Source: an uncultured Victivallales bacterium
GTDB taxonomy: Bacteria > Verrucomicrobiota > Lentisphaeria > Victivallales > UBA1829
Length of the DNA stretch: 64,000 bases
Assembly: GCA_944390735.1 (NCBI GenBank)
Contig: CALXRL010000094.1
Span: forward strand, 1 to 64,000
Direction of reading: 5' to 3'
The position numbers and the translations under genes were made by a program. Under the pieces are notes generated by a model. The model saw only the letters and a program-made list of their open reading frames with translations. It had not been told where the DNA came from and did not search any database. Below, one piece after another: positions 5,417 through 18,341 of this stretch. Every line of letters starts with the position of its first letter. The first letter of the stretch is position 1.

Positions 5417-5928
5417 ACAGAAAACTGCTGATTGTCATCCTTGGAGTCGTGGCGGTCTGCGCCGCAGGCGTGCTTCTCTGGCGATTCCTGTTTGCGGAGT
5501 CGCCGGAGCATCAGATCCGCCGGACCTTTCAGGAGTTGTCCGCCACCGCCCGGAAGACCGGAAAGGAGGGCCTCATCGTTGCTATGGAAAAAGCCCGCGA
5601 CACCGCCCGCTTCTTTGACGACGTCTGCACTCTGAAACTGGACCGGATTCCCAATGGGGTCGGCGCCATGAGCCGCCAGAACATCACGGCAAACACTCTG
5701 ACGCTGCGCAACTATTTCCGAACCATGAAAGTCACGTTCTACGACATGGAAATCCTGGTGGACAGGGAGAAACCGGAGGCACAGGCCACTTTCACCGCCG
5801 TCTTCGAGGGCGATCCCTCCTCCGGCCGGCCCGTCCGCGAGACCAAGGAGATGGATGCCGGTCTGGTGCGGAAGCAGGACCGCTGGCTCCTGACATCGCT
5901 TGCCTTCCGCGATGTCATCCGGAAATGA
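5413..5928 (+). CDS. Membrane-anchored protein, possibly NTF2-like fold
   Basis: A 171-residue protein with one N-terminal membrane helix (residues about 5-27, LLIVILGVVAVCAAGVLLW) and an exported soluble part. The pattern of an alpha-helical start followed by strands ending in DAGLVRKQDRWLLTSLAFRDV resembles NTF2/SnoaL-like ligand-binding folds, where RW-type strands are typical. This fold assignment is inference; no catalytic residues can be named. It overlaps the short signal peptidase by 4 bp (ATGA) and its 3' end overlaps the convergent UroD gene by 14 bp. Confidence 0.6.
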   Translation: MNRKLLIVILGVVAVCAAGVLLWRFLFAESPEHQIRRTFQELSATARKTGKEGLIVAMEKARDTARFFDDVCTLKLDRIPNGVGAMSRQNITANTLTLRNYFRTMKVTFYDMEILVDREKPEAQATFTAVFEGDPSSGRPVRETKEMDAGLVRKQDRWLLTSLAFRDVIRK

Positions 5929-7006
5929 CGCTTCTCTTTTCCGAAGCCTCCCGGCAGGCGGAAACGTATGCTTCGATGTTTTCCCATGGCACTTCCGGTT
6001 CCACCAGATGCGTCGGCGTGCAGAGCAGTCCGCCCTGTTCGCCGGCGATCCTCAGATTCCGGAGAACCGCATCCCGCACCTCCTCCGGCGTTCCGAAGGG
6101 AAGCGTGGTCTGGGTGCCGAGCGTGCCCCAGAAGGAGAGGCGGTCTCCGCAGGCATCGTGAATTTCCTTGAAATCCATGCATTCCGGCTGAACCGGATTC
6201 AGCACATCGATTCCCGCTTCGATCAGGTCTTCCAGAAAAGGGGTCACATAACCGCAGGAGTGGTAGGTGATCAGCAGAGACGGATGGACTCGTTTCGCCG
6301 CGGAAATGACCCGTTTCAGGCGCGGCTTCAGGTGTGCGCGGTAGAGTTCGAGCGACATCATGATGGTATGCTGCATTCCGATGTCGTCGCCCAGACGGAT
6401 GAAGTCCACCCCCGCGGCTGCAAACGCCGCCGCTCGCTTTTCCGCAAGAACGGTGATCCGTTCCAGATGACCCACGGTCATGGGATCGTCCGTCATCATG
6501 CCGATCATCATCTCCTCCATGCTCCGCAGGTACCAGGCGCATTCCCAGATGGTGCACTCCATGCAGACGGAGGCGGCTAGACCGCGCGCATGGATGGCTT
6601 CCACCTCTTTCCGGCATGATTCCATCTGCGTCTCATCGAATTCCGGATACGGATAGGCGTCGAACTCCTCCTGCGAGGTGAAATTCTTCATCGGATGGTA
6701 CATCCGGCTCATGTGCATGGATTCCGGCGTTTTCTCGTGCGCAGTTCCCCAGATCGAAAAGGTCGTTTCCGGAAGAAACTCCATTCCGGGATAATACCGT
6801 CTCCAGTCGGTCTCCTTCTGCCGCAGAAACGTGGTTCTGACTTCCCGGGCGGGAAACGAAAAAAATTCCCGGTAATCATCGCCATGGCCGGGATGGTGAC
6901 GGAGAAATTTCTCCACCATGGCCGGGGAAAGGGCGAAATCAACCGGAACGGCTTCATATCCTTTCCGTCGCCACAGACTCAACAGATTTTCGCGCGGGGT
7001 CATCAT
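5915..7006 (-). CDS. Uroporphyrinogen decarboxylase-family methyltransferase (MtaA-like)
   Basis: A 363-residue protein of the UroD superfamily, the fold used by MtaA, MtbA and CmuA to move methyl groups to or from corrinoid proteins or coenzymes. A zinc-site pattern is visible: His249-Ser-Cys251 (YHSCGYV) and Cys329 (GGLLCTPTH), the H-x-C...C arrangement of MtaA-type enzymes, rather than the haem-pathway decarboxylase. It is the last gene of a five-gene operon and overlaps the DUF1638 gene by 4 bp. Operon context with a corrinoid protein and a RACo-like activator strongly supports methyl transfer. The methyl donor or acceptor is not identifiable from sequence. Confidence 0.8.
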   Translation of the reverse strand: MMTPRENLLSLWRRKGYEAVPVDFALSPAMVEKFLRHHPGHGDDYREFFSFPAREVRTTFLRQKETDWRRYYPGMEFLPETTFSIWGTAHEKTPESMHMSRMYHPMKNFTSQEEFDAYPYPEFDETQMESCRKEVEAIHARGLAASVCMECTIWECAWYLRSMEEMMIGMMTDDPMTVGHLERITVLAEKRAAAFAAAGVDFIRLGDDIGMQHTIMMSLELYRAHLKPRLKRVISAAKRVHPSLLITYHSCGYVTPFLEDLIEAGIDVLNPVQPECMDFKEIHDACGDRLSFWGTLGTQTTLPFGTPEEVRDAVLRNLRIAGEQGGLLCTPTHLVEPEVPWENIEAYVSACREASEKRSVISG

Positions 7007-7758
7007 TTGATTTTCTCCTTTTCCTCTTTTGCCGGAGTGGTCGGAACGGTGCGGAGGATCCGGTCCCAGTCGCCGACCTGCCGGATCATTTCGCCGGGTT
7101 TTACCATCAGAAACTCCTCCTCCGCCCAGTTTCCGGCGAGCAGGGCGCGAATCAGATGCAGGGATCCCTGGAGAGTTTGAAAGGGACGTCCTTCCTTCTC
7201 CGCATGTTCCCGGCAGCGTTCCATGGCTTCGGCACAGGGAATCTCCGGAATCTGAATAAAGAAAATCGGCCGGAGTTCCCCGTTGAGTTTCGGGTGCATT
7301 GCCTCGTAGATGTAGCGGGCGTCCTCTTCGCCGTACTGTTCCACGAGCGCCTCCCAGCCGTCGCCGAGAATCATTTCCCCGTCGGAGAAATAGTAGTCGC
7401 CGTGTTCCACAAATCCGATGGATCCGAAGGGGGTGCTCGGCATCGGGGAGAAGATCTCTTCAAAGCGTCTGCGGCTCCCGAGCAGAATGCCGCAGCAGTC
7501 GTGACTGCGCGGAATGACCACCGGAATTGATCGCGCGCACAGTCCGTCGGCGGCGCTGCCGCAGAGTCCGTAGGCAAGAAGAATGGCGTCGAATTCCGGC
7601 GAACGGTCGATTTTTTCCTGAAGTTTCCTCCGCAGTTCCGCCGGATGGGCATGTTCTCCCAGTTCCAGAAATTCAATCGTCAGATGGTGCGGCGATTCCA
7701 TCGCCGCATACGAAAGTTCATGGGAAAAGACATTGCAGGAGATCACTTTGAATTTCAT
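7003..7758 (-). CDS. DUF1638 family protein of the corrinoid operon
   Basis: A 251-residue protein with the start of DUF1638 proteins (KFKVISCNVF) and the family's conserved LLAYGLCG and IPRSHDCCGILLGS segments, which carry paired Cys and His residues. DUF1638 proteins commonly sit beside corrinoid-dependent methyltransferases; their function is not established. The ATG at 7758 overlaps the stop of the upstream activator gene by 4 bp, and the 3' end overlaps the next UroD gene by 4 bp, so expression is coupled on both sides. The Cys-rich segment suggests metal or cofactor binding, which is inference. Confidence 0.8.
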   Translation of the reverse strand: MKFKVISCNVFSHELSYAAMESPHHLTIEFLELGEHAHPAELRRKLQEKIDRSPEFDAILLAYGLCGSAADGLCARSIPVVIPRSHDCCGILLGSRRRFEEIFSPMPSTPFGSIGFVEHGDYYFSDGEMILGDGWEALVEQYGEEDARYIYEAMHPKLNGELRPIFFIQIPEIPCAEAMERCREHAEKEGRPFQTLQGSLHLIRALLAGNWAEEEFLMVKPGEMIRQVGDWDRILRTVPTTPAKEEKEKIK

Positions 7759-9191
7759 GGCAGCATCAATCCGTCGATAAAGTTGTTTTCGAATTCGGGA
7801 AGTGCATTCAGCGGCAGTTCGTGCGGCAGCGCGGAGAGTCGTTCGAGTTCCGGGAGCAGTTCCGGTTTTGCCGCCAGTTCCGCCGCGCCCGCAAGACTGG
7901 TGTTGCCCACGATCCGGCACTCCACCTCCGGCAGCATTCCGATCGCCCTGGCATTGGCCGGATCCAGATAACGGGCGAATCCTCCGGCGAGAAGAAGACG
8001 TCTGACCGGCGTCCCGCAGGAATCCGCAAGGGTTTGAATTCCGGCTGCGACGGCGGCTTTCGCCTTCAGCAGCTGGGAGATCTCCTCCTCCCGGATCGAC
8101 AGCGTCTCCGTAAAGGCAAATTGTTCCGCTTTCGGCTGAAGACGGCCGAATTCATTCAGACGTCCCTTCCGGCGCATGACCGCCAGAAAATCAATCATGG
8201 CGCTTCCGCAGAGGCCGGCGGCTTCTCCGCCTCCGAGAACGGAAAACGTTCCATCCGGGAAATAGTGGTCGACGGCTCCCTCCACCGCGCGGCTCCCGCA
8301 CGGGATTCCGCTGCCTTCGAACGCCGGCCCCGCGGCCGCCGCGGTGCAGAAGATCCCTTCCCGCGTCCGGAAAACCATCTCGCAGTTGGTGCCGATGTCC
8401 ACCAGCATCTCTCCCGGCTGCGGATCGGTCCGCAGAATTCCCCCCACCAGATCCCCTCCGACAAATCCGGCAATCGCCGGGATGGTCAGAACCGGAAGGT
8501 CCGGCGGCGCCGAAATCAGTCCGCATTCGCGCGCCGTGCGGATCGGAAAACAGCGAAGCGGCGGAAGAAACGGCATCGTTCCGACCGGACTGGGGTCCAC
8601 TCCGTGAAACAGAAGACTCATGACGGTATTGCCCGCCACGCCGATCCGGACGCAGTCCGACGCATCCAGTTCCGCGAGAAGCTCGTCGATGGTCTCTCGG
8701 ACGGCCCGCCGTTCCTCCTCCAGCGCCTCCTTCGAGCTGCCCGCGTGGACGATTCGCGAGATCACATTGTCTCCGAACCTGCTCTGTCCGTTGAAGGCGC
8801 TTGCGCGCGCGACAATGGTTCCGTTGACCAGTTTCACCGCGGCAACCGTGGTCGTTCCGATGTCAATGCCGATCACCGGATCGGGAAGAGATGGCGGCGG
8901 GTTTCCCGTCCACTCCGTCAGAATGCGTCCCGGAAGGGTGCGGAGCGAACGGTCCGGAACGTCGACGCATCCGCGTTCGCTTTCCAGCACCGTCCGGCAC
9001 GCCTTGGCGGAGATGCCCGGCGGAGAAACCGATCTCTCTTTGCCGTCAATGCGATAGGTCCCCGAGAGAAGCTGAACGCGGCAGCGCCCGCAGCTGCCGT
9101 TTCCGCCGCAGCGCAGATCCAGCGCGCAGCCCTCCGCGGCGAGAAGGTCCGCGAGAGATTCCGCTTTCCGTCTGTGCAGTTCCAGTTTCAT
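7755..9191 (-). CDS. Corrinoid activation protein, RACo-like (ferredoxin domain plus ASKHA domain)
   Basis: A 478-residue protein. Residues 1-70 are a 2Fe-2S ferredoxin-like domain with Cys28-x5-Cys34-x2-Cys37 and Cys65. After a linker, an ATPase of the ASKHA fold starts at VIGIDIGTTTVAAVKL (phosphate-1 loop) and continues with GDNVISRI, VDIGTNCEM, AAAGPAFEGSGI and GGFARYLDPANA. RACo-type activators use ATP to drive one-electron reduction of Co(II) corrinoid back to Co(I) after accidental oxidation. It sits between the two methyltransferase halves of the operon and overlaps its neighbours by 4 bp on both sides. This is the clearest sign that the operon performs corrinoid methyl transfer. Confidence 0.9.
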   Translation of the reverse strand: MKLELHRRKAESLADLLAAEGCALDLRCGGNGSCGRCRVQLLSGTYRIDGKERSVSPPGISAKACRTVLESERGCVDVPDRSLRTLPGRILTEWTGNPPPSLPDPVIGIDIGTTTVAAVKLVNGTIVARASAFNGQSRFGDNVISRIVHAGSSKEALEEERRAVRETIDELLAELDASDCVRIGVAGNTVMSLLFHGVDPSPVGTMPFLPPLRCFPIRTARECGLISAPPDLPVLTIPAIAGFVGGDLVGGILRTDPQPGEMLVDIGTNCEMVFRTREGIFCTAAAAGPAFEGSGIPCGSRAVEGAVDHYFPDGTFSVLGGGEAAGLCGSAMIDFLAVMRRKGRLNEFGRLQPKAEQFAFTETLSIREEEISQLLKAKAAVAAGIQTLADSCGTPVRRLLLAGGFARYLDPANARAIGMLPEVECRIVGNTSLAGAAELAAKPELLPELERLSALPHELPLNALPEFENNFIDGLMLP

Positions 9192-10276
9192 GAAGGATAG
9201 GTTCCGATCCGGAGTCCGTTTTCGAGAAAATAGCGGTAGCTGTCGTAGTCCGTCGATTCCGGAATGGAGTGGTCGGAATGGAGGAGAAAACCGTTTTTCT
9301 TCATGACGATCGGGACTTTGCTTTCAAGCTCGCGCAGGATTCCGGGACGGTCGTTTTTGGTGATCGGGCGCACATCGAGTCCGCCCATGAGCGCGATCCT
9401 GTCGCCGAAATTTTGATAGATGCGCAGAAGATCCATTCCCGCCTTGACCTCCATCGCCTGCAGACAGTCGATTCCCGCTTCCACCATGCCCGGCAGAAGC
9501 GGTTCCACAAATCCGCACGAGTGCATGAGAACAGGAAGACCGAGACTGTGCGCAAAGGCAATCGTCCGGCTGTGGGCCGGCTGAATGAGCTCCCGGTACA
9601 TCTCCGGCGACATGAAGGGCCGTCCCTTGAACCCCATGTCCTCGAAGAACCAGATTCCGTCGGGTTTTCCCTCCTCCGCAATGAGGATCTCCATCAGATG
9701 AATCCAGAGATCGGCATAGGTGTCGACCATGTCCCTGACCCAGTCGGGATCAAGCGCCATCGCCATCAGGAAGTTTTCGTGCCCGCAGATCGGGTGGATT
9801 GATTCAAAGACGTTGACGCCCGCCCAGCAGAAGAACCGTCCCTTCTCCTCGCAGTGACGTTTCTCTCTGCGATAGCTTTCGAAGGCGATGCGTTTCCGCT
9901 CCGGCGTGAGAAACGGTTTGGCTTTCTCCTTCCAGTCCTCGCAGGTGTTGATGGAGTAGCCGAGATGTTCCGGAGTGGTGTCATGCCCCTTGTAGCGGCG
10001 CATGGTGGCGCCGTTGCCGTCAAGAAAGGTTTTCGTATCCTCGTCCTCCGCCACGAGCCTGTCCTGCATGTCCGGATTGATTTTGAGGTTGAAGCTCCAG
10101 TTCATGGCAATGTCAAGATGAAAATGGTCCTCCGGCGATTCCCCCGCAGGGAACACCCCCTGTTCCACCCAGTGGGAAATGGTGTGGCTCCAGAATTGCT
10201 CCATCACGGCGATGCGGTCGACCGGCTGATGCTTCAGCTGCCGGGCAACCCGTTCTTTTCCAGTCAGTTCAGTCAT
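9188..10276 (-). CDS. Uroporphyrinogen decarboxylase-family methyltransferase, second copy
   Basis: A 362-residue UroD-superfamily protein. The His252-Ser-Cys254 pair (MHSCGFV) matches the zinc site of methyltransferase members. The third ligand position, Cys329 in the other operon copy, here falls in FLLHSDHSIPE, so His or Asp would have to serve. The start at 10276 has an AGGAG ribosome site; upstream in-frame codons would overlap the corrinoid-protein gene. It follows that gene by 34 bp and overlaps the activator gene by 4 bp. The two UroD copies probably do different steps: methyl transfer from substrate to cobalt, and from cobalt to an acceptor. Which does which cannot be decided here. 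Confidence 0.8.
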   Translation of the reverse strand: MTELTGKERVARQLKHQPVDRIAVMEQFWSHTISHWVEQGVFPAGESPEDHFHLDIAMNWSFNLKINPDMQDRLVAEDEDTKTFLDGNGATMRRYKGHDTTPEHLGYSINTCEDWKEKAKPFLTPERKRIAFESYRREKRHCEEKGRFFCWAGVNVFESIHPICGHENFLMAMALDPDWVRDMVDTYADLWIHLMEILIAEEGKPDGIWFFEDMGFKGRPFMSPEMYRELIQPAHSRTIAFAHSLGLPVLMHSCGFVEPLLPGMVEAGIDCLQAMEVKAGMDLLRIYQNFGDRIALMGGLDVRPITKNDRPGILRELESKVPIVMKKNGFLLHSDHSIPESTDYDSYRYFLENGLRIGTYPS

Positions 10277-10310
10277 GGGCGGCTCCTGCGTTCGGTTCGG
10301 TGGCGCGGAG

Positions 10311-10937
10311 TCAGCTGGCGCGGTGGTAAAGGGAGTCCACGAGCTTGACGGCGCCGTTGGCGTCCTCACTGTACCCGTCGGCGCCGATTTCGTCGGCGAA
10401 CGCCTGGGTGACGGGGGCTCCGCCGATGATGACTTTGACATGGGTGCCCTTGAAGTGTTCCACCACCTCTCTCATATAGGGCATGGTCGTGGTCAGAAGC
10501 GAACTGCATGCCACGATGTCCGCGCCCTGCTTTACGGCACTGTCATATTTTGCGGTGTCGCAGTTGACGCCGAGGTCGATGACGTCGTATCCGGCGCCCT
10601 TGAGCATGATGGCGACGAGATTTTTCCCGATGTCATGGAGGTCTCCCTTGACCGTTCCGATGGCAATCTTGCCGATGGATTTCCGTCCGCTCGCGGCAAT
10701 CAGGGGTTCAAGGAGAGCCAGACCGGTCTGCATGGCGCGCGCGGCGATGAGAAGTTCGGGGACATAGGCTTCGTTCCGGGAGAACTTGTCGCCGATTTCG
10801 CGCATGGCGGGAATCATGCCTTCGTCGAGAAGACGGTTGATGTCCTCCTTTTCCTCCAGCGCGGCCTGAACGATGGCGGTCACGTCGTTGCGTTTTCCTT
10901 TGATGATTGCGGTCCGCAGCGCTTCAAAATCCGTCAT
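10311..10937 (-). CDS. Methyltransferase corrinoid-binding protein
   Basis: A 208-residue B12 carrier protein of the MtaC/MtbC/MtmC type. Residues 1-85 form the helical cap domain, and residues about 88-205 the Rossmann-like B12-binding domain with DLHDIGKN, where His101 would be the lower axial cobalt ligand. IACSS-type and GGAPVT segments complete the cobalamin pocket. I chose the ATG at 10937 with an AAGGAGA site; a TTG two codons upstream is too close to that site. It is the first gene of the corrinoid operon, so the carrier is made together with its two UroD partners and reactivator. Confidence 0.92.
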   Translation of the reverse strand: MTDFEALRTAIIKGKRNDVTAIVQAALEEKEDINRLLDEGMIPAMREIGDKFSRNEAYVPELLIAARAMQTGLALLEPLIAASGRKSIGKIAIGTVKGDLHDIGKNLVAIMLKGAGYDVIDLGVNCDTAKYDSAVKQGADIVACSSLLTTTMPYMREVVEHFKGTHVKVIIGGAPVTQAFADEIGADGYSEDANGAVKLVDSLYHRAS

Positions 10938-11091
10938 GGTCAATCTCCTTGTGTTACAGGTGTTCTGTCCGGCTTTGCTGCCGTTTGATGAATTTGTTTT
11001 GTCGTCTGCTTTCCTTCTTCCGGTCTCCGGAGAAGAGGGGAATCCCTTCTGTTCCCGTCATAATTTATGCGTGAAAAAGAAAAATGTCTTC

Positions 11092-11120
11092 TTGTATTTT
11101 GAAAAGTTTTGCTCTATATT
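11092..11120 (+). promoter_or_regulatory. Promoter giving an almost leaderless AraC mRNA
   Basis: TTGTAT (11092-11097) and TATATT (11115-11120) with a 17-bp spacer. The -10 ends only six bases before the ATG at 11127, so transcription would start at or next to the start codon. No ribosome site is visible. Confidence 0.55.
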
Positions 11121-11126
11121 AATTTT

Positions 11127-12056
11127 ATGATGCAGACCATTACTCTGGAACTGGACAATTTCATCAATCCGGCCGTGGGCGCGGAGGTCTCGTTTCATTC
11201 CATCAGCTGGAACCGGGAGCACAAGCAGACCTCGATTCCCAGCGGAGGCAATCTGCACTATCACTCTCTTCCCGCCGGCGGAACGGTGCCGCACACCCAT
11301 GAATTCGGGGAACTGATTCTGCTGCTTTCCGGTTCGATCGTCCATCTCGTGAACGGGGAACGGCAGCTTCTGGAGGCCAACGACGTTGCTTTTGTGCGTC
11401 CCAGCGACCGCCACGGATTCCTGCCTCCGGAGAAGGGCGGACATTGTGAACTGCTTCTGCTCTCCTTCTGTCTGGAGTTCTTCTACACCCTCAGTCAGTA
11501 TCTGGAGAACGATGAATTCCTCCACCGCTATACGGAGAGCGTTCTGCCCGCGGTCTGCCGTCTGCCGGAAAATCAGATGAACGATCTTTCCCTTCAGCTT
11601 CTGAACCTGAATGCGCAGAACATCGCGCCCTCCCTCCGGAAGATCCGGTTCAAAATGCTTCTGCTCCAGCTCTTCACCCGCTGTTTTCTGGATTCGGAGC
11701 GTGCGACGAATCCGGCCGCTCCGGAATGGCTCAACATGCTCTGCTCCCGGATGAGACAGCCGGAAAATTTCATTCCCGGCTTGAAACGAATGCAGAAACT
11801 CTCCGGTTACACGCCGGAATATCTCTGCAAGACCTTCCGGAAATATCTCGGTCAGAGTCCCACGGAGTTTATCAACGAACTGCGGATCAACCATGCCGCG
11901 CGGCTGCTGGCGGATTCCGATCTGGGAATTTCCGAAATCGCCTTTGAACTGAAATTCCAGAGTCTGAGCCGCTTCTACCATCTGTTCAAGCGGCAGTACG
12001 CCTGCACTCCGGTCGAATACCGGAAGCGTGCGCTTTCCGCAAAGCGGCTGCTCTGA
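11127..12056 (+). CDS. AraC family transcriptional regulator
   Basis: A 309-residue regulator. Residues about 45-130 are a cupin-type sensing domain (GGTVPHTHEFGELILLLSGS, with the metal or sugar-facing His pair). Residues about 205-305 are two helix-turn-helix motifs of the AraC family, ending in FELKFQSLSRFYHLFKRQY and TPVEYRK. It is divergent from the corrinoid operon, with 189 bp between starts, and probably regulates it. There is no Shine-Dalgarno sequence before ATG 11127; a second ATG directly follows. The start is therefore chosen from the promoter position. Confidence 0.85.
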   Translation: MMQTITLELDNFINPAVGAEVSFHSISWNREHKQTSIPSGGNLHYHSLPAGGTVPHTHEFGELILLLSGSIVHLVNGERQLLEANDVAFVRPSDRHGFLPPEKGGHCELLLLSFCLEFFYTLSQYLENDEFLHRYTESVLPAVCRLPENQMNDLSLQLLNLNAQNIAPSLRKIRFKMLLLQLFTRCFLDSERATNPAAPEWLNMLCSRMRQPENFIPGLKRMQKLSGYTPEYLCKTFRKYLGQSPTEFINELRINHAARLLADSDLGISEIAFELKFQSLSRFYHLFKRQYACTPVEYRKRALSAKRLL

Positions 12057-17468: not shown

Positions 17469-18341
17469 TCAGGCTCCGATTCCGCCGGTGAAGACAACGG
17501 TCCGGTTTTCGTGGACGATCACGCGGCTTTCCAGATGCGCCTTGACCGCGCGGGAGAGGACCATCATCTCCACATCGCGTCCAATGCGGGAGAGGTCATC
17601 CGGTCCATATTCATGAGTGACGCGCACGACATCCTGTTCGATAATCGGTCCCTCGTCGAGATCCGCGGTGACATAGTGTGCGGTGGCTCCGATCATCTTC
17701 ACGCCGCGCTGGAATGCCCGCAGATACGGATTCGCCCCCTGAAACGCCGGCAGAAACGCATGATGGATGTTGATGATCCGGTTCCGGTAGAGATCAATGA
17801 ACGCCGGTGTGATGATCTGCATATAGCGTGCAAGAACCACAAGATCGATATGATGAATGGAGAGAAGCTCCGTGATTTTCTCCTCCTGTTCCTTTTTGGT
17901 CTCTTTGGTGACCGGGAGGCAGAAGAACGGGACGCGGAACTGTTCGGCCACATATTCCAGATCGGGATGATTGGAGAGAATCAGGGGAATCTCACACTTC
18001 AAAGTTCCCTCCCGCTGTTTGACGAGCAGGTCGTAGAGACAGTGCGACGCCTTGGACACCAGGATCGCCATGCGCGGCACATAGTCGGAATAGTGGACCG
18101 ACCACTCCAGTCCGAGCGGCTTTCCGAATTCCGTCAGACGGTTTTCCAGATCCTTCTTGCTGAAGGCCAGATCGGCCAGATCGAGTTTCAGACGCATGAA
18201 ATACTGTCCGGTCATGCAGTCGGTGTACTGCTGGCAGTTCAGGATGTTCAGTCCGAGTTCGTAGAAGAAGTTGGTGATTCCGGCGACGAGTCCTTTTTTA
18301 TCCATGCAGCGGATCAGGAACACCGCGTTTGTGTCTTTCAT
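17469..18341 (-). CDS. purU: Formyltetrahydrofolate deformylase
   Basis: A 290-residue protein with an N-terminal ACT domain (AVFLIRCMDKKGLVAGITNF) and a C-terminal formyltransferase-type hydrolase domain. The catalytic Asn/His/Asp set is seen in INIHHAFLPAFQGANPY and AHYVTADLDEGPII. It hydrolyses 10-formyl-THF to THF and formate, supplying formate for purine synthesis or balancing one-carbon units. It starts 15 bp after the lepB stop, so it appears to be the third gene of a lepA-lepB-purU unit. Confidence 0.93.
   Translation of the reverse strand: MKDTNAVFLIRCMDKKGLVAGITNFFYELGLNILNCQQYTDCMTGQYFMRLKLDLADLAFSKKDLENRLTEFGKPLGLEWSVHYSDYVPRMAILVSKASHCLYDLLVKQREGTLKCEIPLILSNHPDLEYVAEQFRVPFFCLPVTKETKKEQEEKITELLSIHHIDLVVLARYMQIITPAFIDLYRNRIINIHHAFLPAFQGANPYLRAFQRGVKMIGATAHYVTADLDEGPIIEQDVVRVTHEYGPDDLSRIGRDVEMMVLSRAVKAHLESRVIVHENRTVVFTGGIGA

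Follow-up and report, generated by a model that had tools for sequence, protein, structure and literature searches.

The first 64,000 nucleotides of contig CALXRL010000094.1 (contig C94; hereafter the window) form the start of one contig in the 4.29-Mb, 92%-complete assembly of a gut-type Lentisphaerota bacterium, whose closest named matches are uncultured Victivallales, with Victivallis vadensis DSM 14823 among the more distant ones. The window carries a five-gene operon for a corrinoid methyl-carrier protein, two UroD-superfamily methyltransferases (UroD-1 and UroD-2), a RACo-type activase and a DUF1638 protein, next to a divergent AraC-family regulator gene. With guarded confidence, we read this operon as the central part of a corrinoid methyltransferase regulon that is scattered over the genome and controlled by AraC, in which UroD proteins load one carrier and a UroD protein encoded elsewhere, UroD-3, passes the methyl group to a thiol. 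One corrinoid carrier probably serves about six UroD-like methyltransferases in the AraC regulon, whose members are apparently switched on together via one shared DNA site. Gene content, the co-occurrence of UroD-3, the shared promoter motif, the ligand-motif classes and the lack of the usual partners in the assembly were computed directly.

The shared site is a 34-bp AraC-type element, AATATAGAGCAAAACTTTTCAAAATACAAGAAGA, which adjoins the AraC start with the pattern AATATAnAGCAAA-n6-CAAnA-n3-AAGAAGA and in which, in several genomes, GCAAAA is directly repeated at a distance of 10 bp. Relatives retain the element at their cluster promoters; the genomes of the window and of a congener have it ahead of UroD-3. 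A pattern built from the cluster-promoter and UroD-3 sites was scanned against 20 genomes with up to 3 mismatches; in the window's own genome it gives four matches, against 0.0007 expected by base composition. Perfect sites are found at the operon, at UroD-3 and at the promoter of UroD-5, the genome's fourth PF01208 protein (contig C20, with ruvB and transketolase genes as neighbours). The fourth site, with 2 mismatches, lies on contig C100 between two divergently transcribed genes, one for a U4-type UroD-like protein and one for a UroD-like protein of more divergent sequence. All four, including those on C20 and C100, which were not used in pattern building, precede UroD-superfamily genes, and each of the four UroD-bearing transcription units detected in the genome has the motif. 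The reversed pattern gave 0 matches in the 20 genomes, and the shuffled-window control an expectation of 0. A TAnAnT-like hexamer follows all 14 aligned sites at 17-20 nt, the arrangement that an activator next to the promoter would give. The C100 U4 protein shares 68-74% identity with the U4 proteins whose genes neighbour the corrinoid gene in L044, L097, L101 and L110, an independent tie to the system.

An initial annotation of this DNA had proposed induction through the divergent AraC, whose cupin domain it took to suggest a small-molecule signal. Pfam places both Cupin_2 and AraC_binding at the N-terminus, and with the motif beside araC recurring at the other UroD-bearing units, AraC control of the methyl-transfer system is very probable. 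The regulator gene starts with the ATG at 11127, a TTG further upstream being possible; a TATATT hexamer lies about 10 nt before this ATG (window 11120-11127), and the araC mRNA could be leaderless. On C100, genes for glucuronate isomerase (uxaC) and glucosamine-6-phosphate deaminase are convergent with the motif-bearing UroD-like pair (L201:9678-11846, G000:C100). This uxaC gene is a weak hint at 4-O-methylglucuronate, and only a lead, because it sits in a separate convergent gene group.

UroD-3 is encoded outside the operon, on contig C90. In relatives it is a protein of about 340 amino acids whose gene adjoins the corrinoid gene and, in most clusters, comes first behind the AraC promoter; in a tree of 80 UroD proteins the window genome's own copy branches at 100/88 support with the UroD-3 proteins encoded in the clusters of Victivallis and relatives. 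Among 33 genomes UroD-3 is present in 13/13 with the corrinoid–RACo–DUF1638 set, versus 2/20 relatives without DUF1638 (Fisher p = 1.8e-7, a value that overstates independence because the compared genomes are related). Our best guess is that UroD-3 is the dedicated partner that passes the methyl group to a thiol. The initial annotation had held that the two operon UroD proteins must perform both half-reactions, a claim that loses its support through this MtaA-like His-Cys-Cys protein in trans, preceded by the same motif and in-cluster in relatives.

Within the window, the five genes stand in the order and at the coordinates first annotated, all on the minus strand, as judged by Pfam domains and by a check of the junctions (Table 1). 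Three consecutive 4-bp overlaps, at UroD-1/RACo, RACo/DUF1638 and DUF1638/UroD-2, are exact, and the corrinoid gene is followed by UroD-1 after a 34-bp gap. The search for the five-gene order in other genomes, which the annotation had suggested, found it in one congener (contig L094), with UroD-1 92% and UroD-2 89% identical to those of the window. Throughout the order, Victivallis vadensis included, the corrinoid–RACo–DUF1638 core is found again beside a divergent AraC homologue, and the set of UroD genes next to the core varies between relatives. At locus L101:150-14361 one corrinoid gene, one RACo and DUF1638 are accompanied by as many as eight UroD-family genes, with 4-bp overlaps between several of the neighbouring genes. 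No Rfam element, cobalamin riboswitch included, reaches the gathering score within the window. A PurU-like formyl-tetrahydrofolate (THF) deformylase, with ACT and formyltransferase domains, is encoded at 17469-18341, 6 kb from the AraC gene.

Table 1. Features of the corrinoid operon and its regulatory region (window positions).
Feature	Position	Strand	Basis
UroD-2, UroD-superfamily methyltransferase, last operon gene	5915..7006	minus	Pfam URO-D, 73.6 bits
DUF1638 protein	7003..7758	minus	Pfam DUF1638, 97.8 bits
RACo-type ATP-dependent corrinoid reductive activase	7755..9191	minus	Pfam RACo_C_ter, Raco_middle, Fer2
UroD-1, UroD-superfamily methyltransferase	9188..10276	minus	Pfam URO-D, 55.8 bits; 80 relatives
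Corrinoid (B12-binding) methyl-carrier protein	10311..10937	minus	Pfam B12-binding, B12-binding_2; DxHxxG axial-His motif; solved relatives
Candidate -10 hexamer TAAATT of operon promoter	11062..11067	minus	19 nt after AraC-type motif
34-bp AraC-type site	11087..11120	minus	genome-wide scan; kept at operon or UroD-3 in relatives
AraC-family regulator, cupin/AraC_binding N-terminus	11127..12056	plus	Pfam Cupin_2, AraC_binding; homologous divergent AraC in relatives

The UroD proteins differ in their metal sites. Classes were taken from the residues at the MtaA zinc-ligand positions in an alignment of 142 UroD proteins, and each forms a separate, well-supported clade in the 80-protein tree. UroD-1 has His-Cys-His ligands, with an invariant HSCG, a near-invariant HSDHSIP and H[ST]DHS in nearly all of 80 cross-phylum relatives. 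UroD-2 (HSCG ... CTPTH) is also His-Cys-His, UroD-3 (HNCG ... SGC) is His-Cys-Cys as in MtaA, U4 has the motif DxDG ... DH and UroD-5 TSDG ... GNH. His-Cys-Cys zinc ligands go with sulfur or selenium chemistry, and carboxylate or absent ligands with oxygen chemistry (PMC10418091). Under this rule UroD-3 would be of thiol type and U4 and UroD-5 of oxygen type; His-Cys-His falls outside the rule.

Ligands and best scores liken UroD-3 to the coenzyme M (CoM) methyltransferases MtaA and MtbA, but its 120-147 bits against CoM-methyltransferase models stay below the curated cut-offs of 235-244, and CoM is not expected as the acceptor here because the host is a bacterium. For TIGR01463 (MtaA/CmuA, cut-off 235.4) UroD-1 reaches 54.5, UroD-2 63.6 and UroD-3 119.7-127.7 bits, all below; TIGR01464 (HemE, cut-off 302.95) does not match UroD-1 or UroD-2 and gives 78.3 bits for UroD-3. 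No HemE equivalog is among the URO-D matches of the assembly, so that haem synthesis by the HemE route may be absent. The predicted structure of UroD-1 (predicted local distance difference test score, pLDDT, 95) has the UroD fold and matches MtaA (4ay8) with Z 26.2 and a root-mean-square deviation of 3.1 over 311 residues, HemE with Z about 28 and MetE with Z about 16.

Several UroD proteins with a corrinoid protein and a Ram activase in the absence of a THF methyltransferase are already established for mlp clusters, the nearest relatives among described systems (PMC10418091). Type 1 clusters of Kountz and Balskus comprise at least two UroD genes, a corrinoid gene and a Ram gene, co-directional within 2 kb, with no THF methylase within 20 kb (PMC10418091); the operon has this gene content, with 20 kb leftward extending past the window and the contig start. 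Like them, it combines at least two UroD proteins, a corrinoid protein and a co-oriented Ram/RACE activase, and like them it belongs to anaerobes. This shared core, together with the His-Cys-Cys UroD-3 in the regulon, speaks for the kind of methyl-selenium or methyl-sulfur salvage that these authors proposed, in which the UroD proteins demethylate methylated sulfur or selenium compounds and another thiol receives the methyl group. We consider this rather doubtful for the present system. The His-Cys-Cys set, called nearly invariable in PMC10418091, is lacking in UroD-1 and UroD-2 (His-Cys-His) as well as in U4 and UroD-5 (Asp-type), and UroD-3 itself falls short of the CoM-methyltransferase cut-offs. 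Unlike in mlp clusters, DUF1638 stands in the core and the members are dispersed under a shared AraC-type site. Selenocysteine machinery, present in 87% of mlp-cluster carriers (PMC10418091), is not clearly seen here: the sole SelA match in the assembly is partial (34.9 bits over 65/367 positions) and falls in a class-V-aminotransferase-like protein that also matches Aminotran_5; SelD, SelB and SelC were not searched.

The usual partners of corrinoid methyl transfer are missing from the assembly. It has 0 matches to PF06253, so the lack of an MttB partner, first remarked for the operon, holds for the whole assembly; likewise, where the initial annotation saw no acetyl-CoA pathway genes in view, PF03598 (acetyl-CoA synthase, CdhC/ACS) gives 0 matches in the assembly, which speaks against acetogenesis by the Wood-Ljungdahl pathway. 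A dedicated THF methyltransferase was not found in the assembly: Pterin_bind occurs on contigs C39 and C44 only, in a 301-amino-acid protein that we take to be probably FolP, and in MetH, which is full-length with its own activation domain. The genome also has methylene-THF reductases and a bifunctional homocysteine S-methyltransferase/methylene-THF reductase (MTHFR). In the absence of MttB, a dedicated THF methyltransferase and acetyl-CoA synthase, methyl-THF methylotrophy is unlikely. The scheme first put forward, in which one operon UroD demethylates a substrate and the other transfers the methyl group to THF, with methyl-THF used for growth, is accordingly improbable: it has on its side a corrinoid protein and activase in one AraC-controlled operon and the methylene-THF reductases, but neither a separate Pterin_bind methyltransferase nor CdhC/ACS is found in the assembly, the conserved partner is UroD-3, and we know of no UroD enzyme with THF as acceptor. 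Of the proposed methyl-transfer pathway for an uncharacterised compound, the corrinoid system is supported, very probably under the control of the divergent AraC; methyl-THF as product is unlikely, and the scheme of two UroD proteins alone is not supported.

That an MttB/MtaB partner is missing is in itself nothing unusual, because UroD-type substrate-specific methyltransferases are well known, namely MtvB, OdmB, VdmB, MtoB, CdmB and CmuA (PMC13222342); the earlier statement that UroD enzymes usually carry out only the second half-reaction overlooked these O-demethylases and dehalogenases. The O-demethylase and Cdm systems (MtvB, OdmB, VdmB, MtoB, CdmB; PMC13222342) likewise have a UroD first methyltransferase, a corrinoid protein and an ATP-dependent activase, but differ in a second methyltransferase making methyl-THF, of which no counterpart was found in the assembly. 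Operon-like runs at L079 (G384:C1:680000-697000) and L082 contain an MTHFR/methyl-THF-methyltransferase fusion, a formate transporter, formate-THF ligase, a corrinoid protein, RACo and DUF1638; the L079 run also has a UroD-thioredoxin fusion, and these genes possibly form a methyl-sulfur to formate pathway.

In the regulon that we favour, one corrinoid protein would carry the methyl group, and the RACo-type activase, probably with the help of DUF1638, would re-reduce the corrinoid cobalt to Co(I). UroD-1 and UroD-2 of the operon, UroD-5 (C20), and the U4-type and the more divergent UroD-like protein (C100) would be the loaders, each transferring methyl groups from a different, probably mostly oxygen-linked donor to the corrinoid protein; UroD-3 (C90) would then pass them to homocysteine, sulfide or another thiol. 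The role would be methyl-group removal or salvage, not folate-based methylotrophy. We infer the direction of transfer, the thiol acceptor, the O-methyl donors and AraC as the motif binder; the absence of MttB, CdhC/ACS and a separate pterin methyltransferase argues for UroD proteins that load and a UroD-3 that unloads to a thiol. A thiol acceptor is plausible by analogy with Hydrogenedentota loci L136:8279-13323 and L140:4144-9219, where UroD-1, a corrinoid protein and a homocysteine S-methyltransferase (PF02574) are encoded consecutively; a UroD-thioredoxin fusion and a CobW protein are further present at L136. More speculatively, the whole may form a folate-independent methyl hub, with several O-methyl donors served by UroD proteins of diversified metal sites, one carrier, and UroD-3 delivering to a thiol, all in one AraC regulon.

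Several observations weigh against the regulon reading. Transfer direction cannot be derived from sequence, the model rests on computation, and the absences are provisional because the assembly is 92% complete. That AraC binds the 34-bp motif is suggested by adjacency and conservation. UroD-3 in genomes G011 and G006 has no close motif match in the genome scan; no Pfam family matches the most divergent C100 protein, whose kinship with UroD comes from profile comparison (91% probability of group alignment). UroD-3 might itself act as a demethylase, on S- or Se-methyl compounds. Furthermore, a corrinoid gene is absent near most UroD-1 relatives outside Lentisphaerota whose flanks were fetched, which the model leaves unexplained; UroD-1 may therefore use other carriers or act otherwise. 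UroD-1-like proteins (L093-L172, 53-72% identical) occur in Clostridia, Chloroflexota, Armatimonadota, Planctomycetota, Spirochaetes and others, and as a guide to the substrate their neighbourhoods offer only recurring LacI, Gfo/Idh and pseudopilin-type genes. Because corrinoid methyltransferases often work reversibly and the sequences leave the direction unfixed, UroD-3 might draw methyl groups from a thioether while the other UroD proteins methylate acceptors. To this reversal we give very little credence: several UroD proteins on one corrinoid protein with an AraC-type switch look like substrate intake.

The activase consists of a ferredoxin-like domain, a RACo middle domain and a C-terminal ASKHA domain, and its Raco_middle (114.8 bits) and RACo_C_ter (174.7 bits) matches identify it as a RACo/AcsV-type activase by domain content. 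It scores under the AcsV equivalog cut-off (244 vs 800) and matches the solved RACo 3zyy (2.3e-59). A function in serving MetH is unlikely, because MetH carries its own activation domain. The DUF1638 protein (PF07796) lies well over the gathering cut-off of 27 bits. Across 31 homologues Cys8, Cys66, Cys88, His36, His86 and Glu14 are conserved, the three cysteines being nearly or fully invariant. DUF1638 is present in 97/388 sampled genomes of the phylum, often outside corrinoid–RACo–DUF1638 clusters. Its predicted structure (pLDDT 86) has no Foldseek match at E below 0.001, and the best VIA match (Z 7.1) is to generic two-lobed alpha/beta folds, from which a function is not interpretable. At L088:8284-11163 a protein of about 950 amino acids joins DUF1638 to hydantoinase/oxoprolinase (ASKHA-type) domains; the proteins of L089 and L090 are of similar length, and L088 is the one of the three whose domains were scanned. 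This fusion independently links DUF1638 to an ATP-dependent activase-like fold.

In Phaeobacter, DUF1638 and a RamA-like protein are both required for B12-dependent methionine synthesis, with no function proposed for DUF1638 (PMC5764234), and by analogy DUF1638 is probably a helper of corrinoid reactivation. The split B12 methionine synthases (Phaeobacter, PMC5764234; Ruegeria, PMC12478193) resemble the present system in bringing together a stand-alone corrinoid protein, a RamA-like activase and DUF1638. They differ in methyltransferases that are MetH-type domains, not UroD, whereas MetH is intact and separate here. The Phaeobacter requirement, the homocysteine S-methyltransferase in the Hydrogenedentota clusters and the resemblance of the predicted UroD-1 fold to MetE would suit an alternative methionine synthase, in which salvaged methyl groups go to homocysteine and UroD-3 is the homocysteine methyltransferase. 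Such a role appears unlikely, as the genome already has a self-activating MetH and the bifunctional homocysteine S-methyltransferase/MTHFR, and AraC-type control suits an inducible, not a biosynthetic, role. As one choice of acceptor it would fit into the favoured regulon.

As far as we found, three features appear to be new: a regulon whose scattered members share one AraC-type site, the diversity of metal sites on one corrinoid protein and the presence of DUF1638 in the core. Literature searches on UroD with Lentisphaerota, on cobalamin-linked carbohydrate demethylation and on DUF4445 returned nothing relevant. Anaerobes and gut bacteria have UroD-superfamily proteins in abundance, most of them enzymes without an assigned function. 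Through the shared promoter motif, at least six UroD-like proteins, one corrinoid protein, one activase and DUF1638 come together in a single system, the partners and substrates of which thereby become jointly testable in the cultured Victivallis vadensis. It also provides a new setting for working out the function of DUF1638, and points to a way in which gut bacteria might remove methyl groups without forming methyl-THF.

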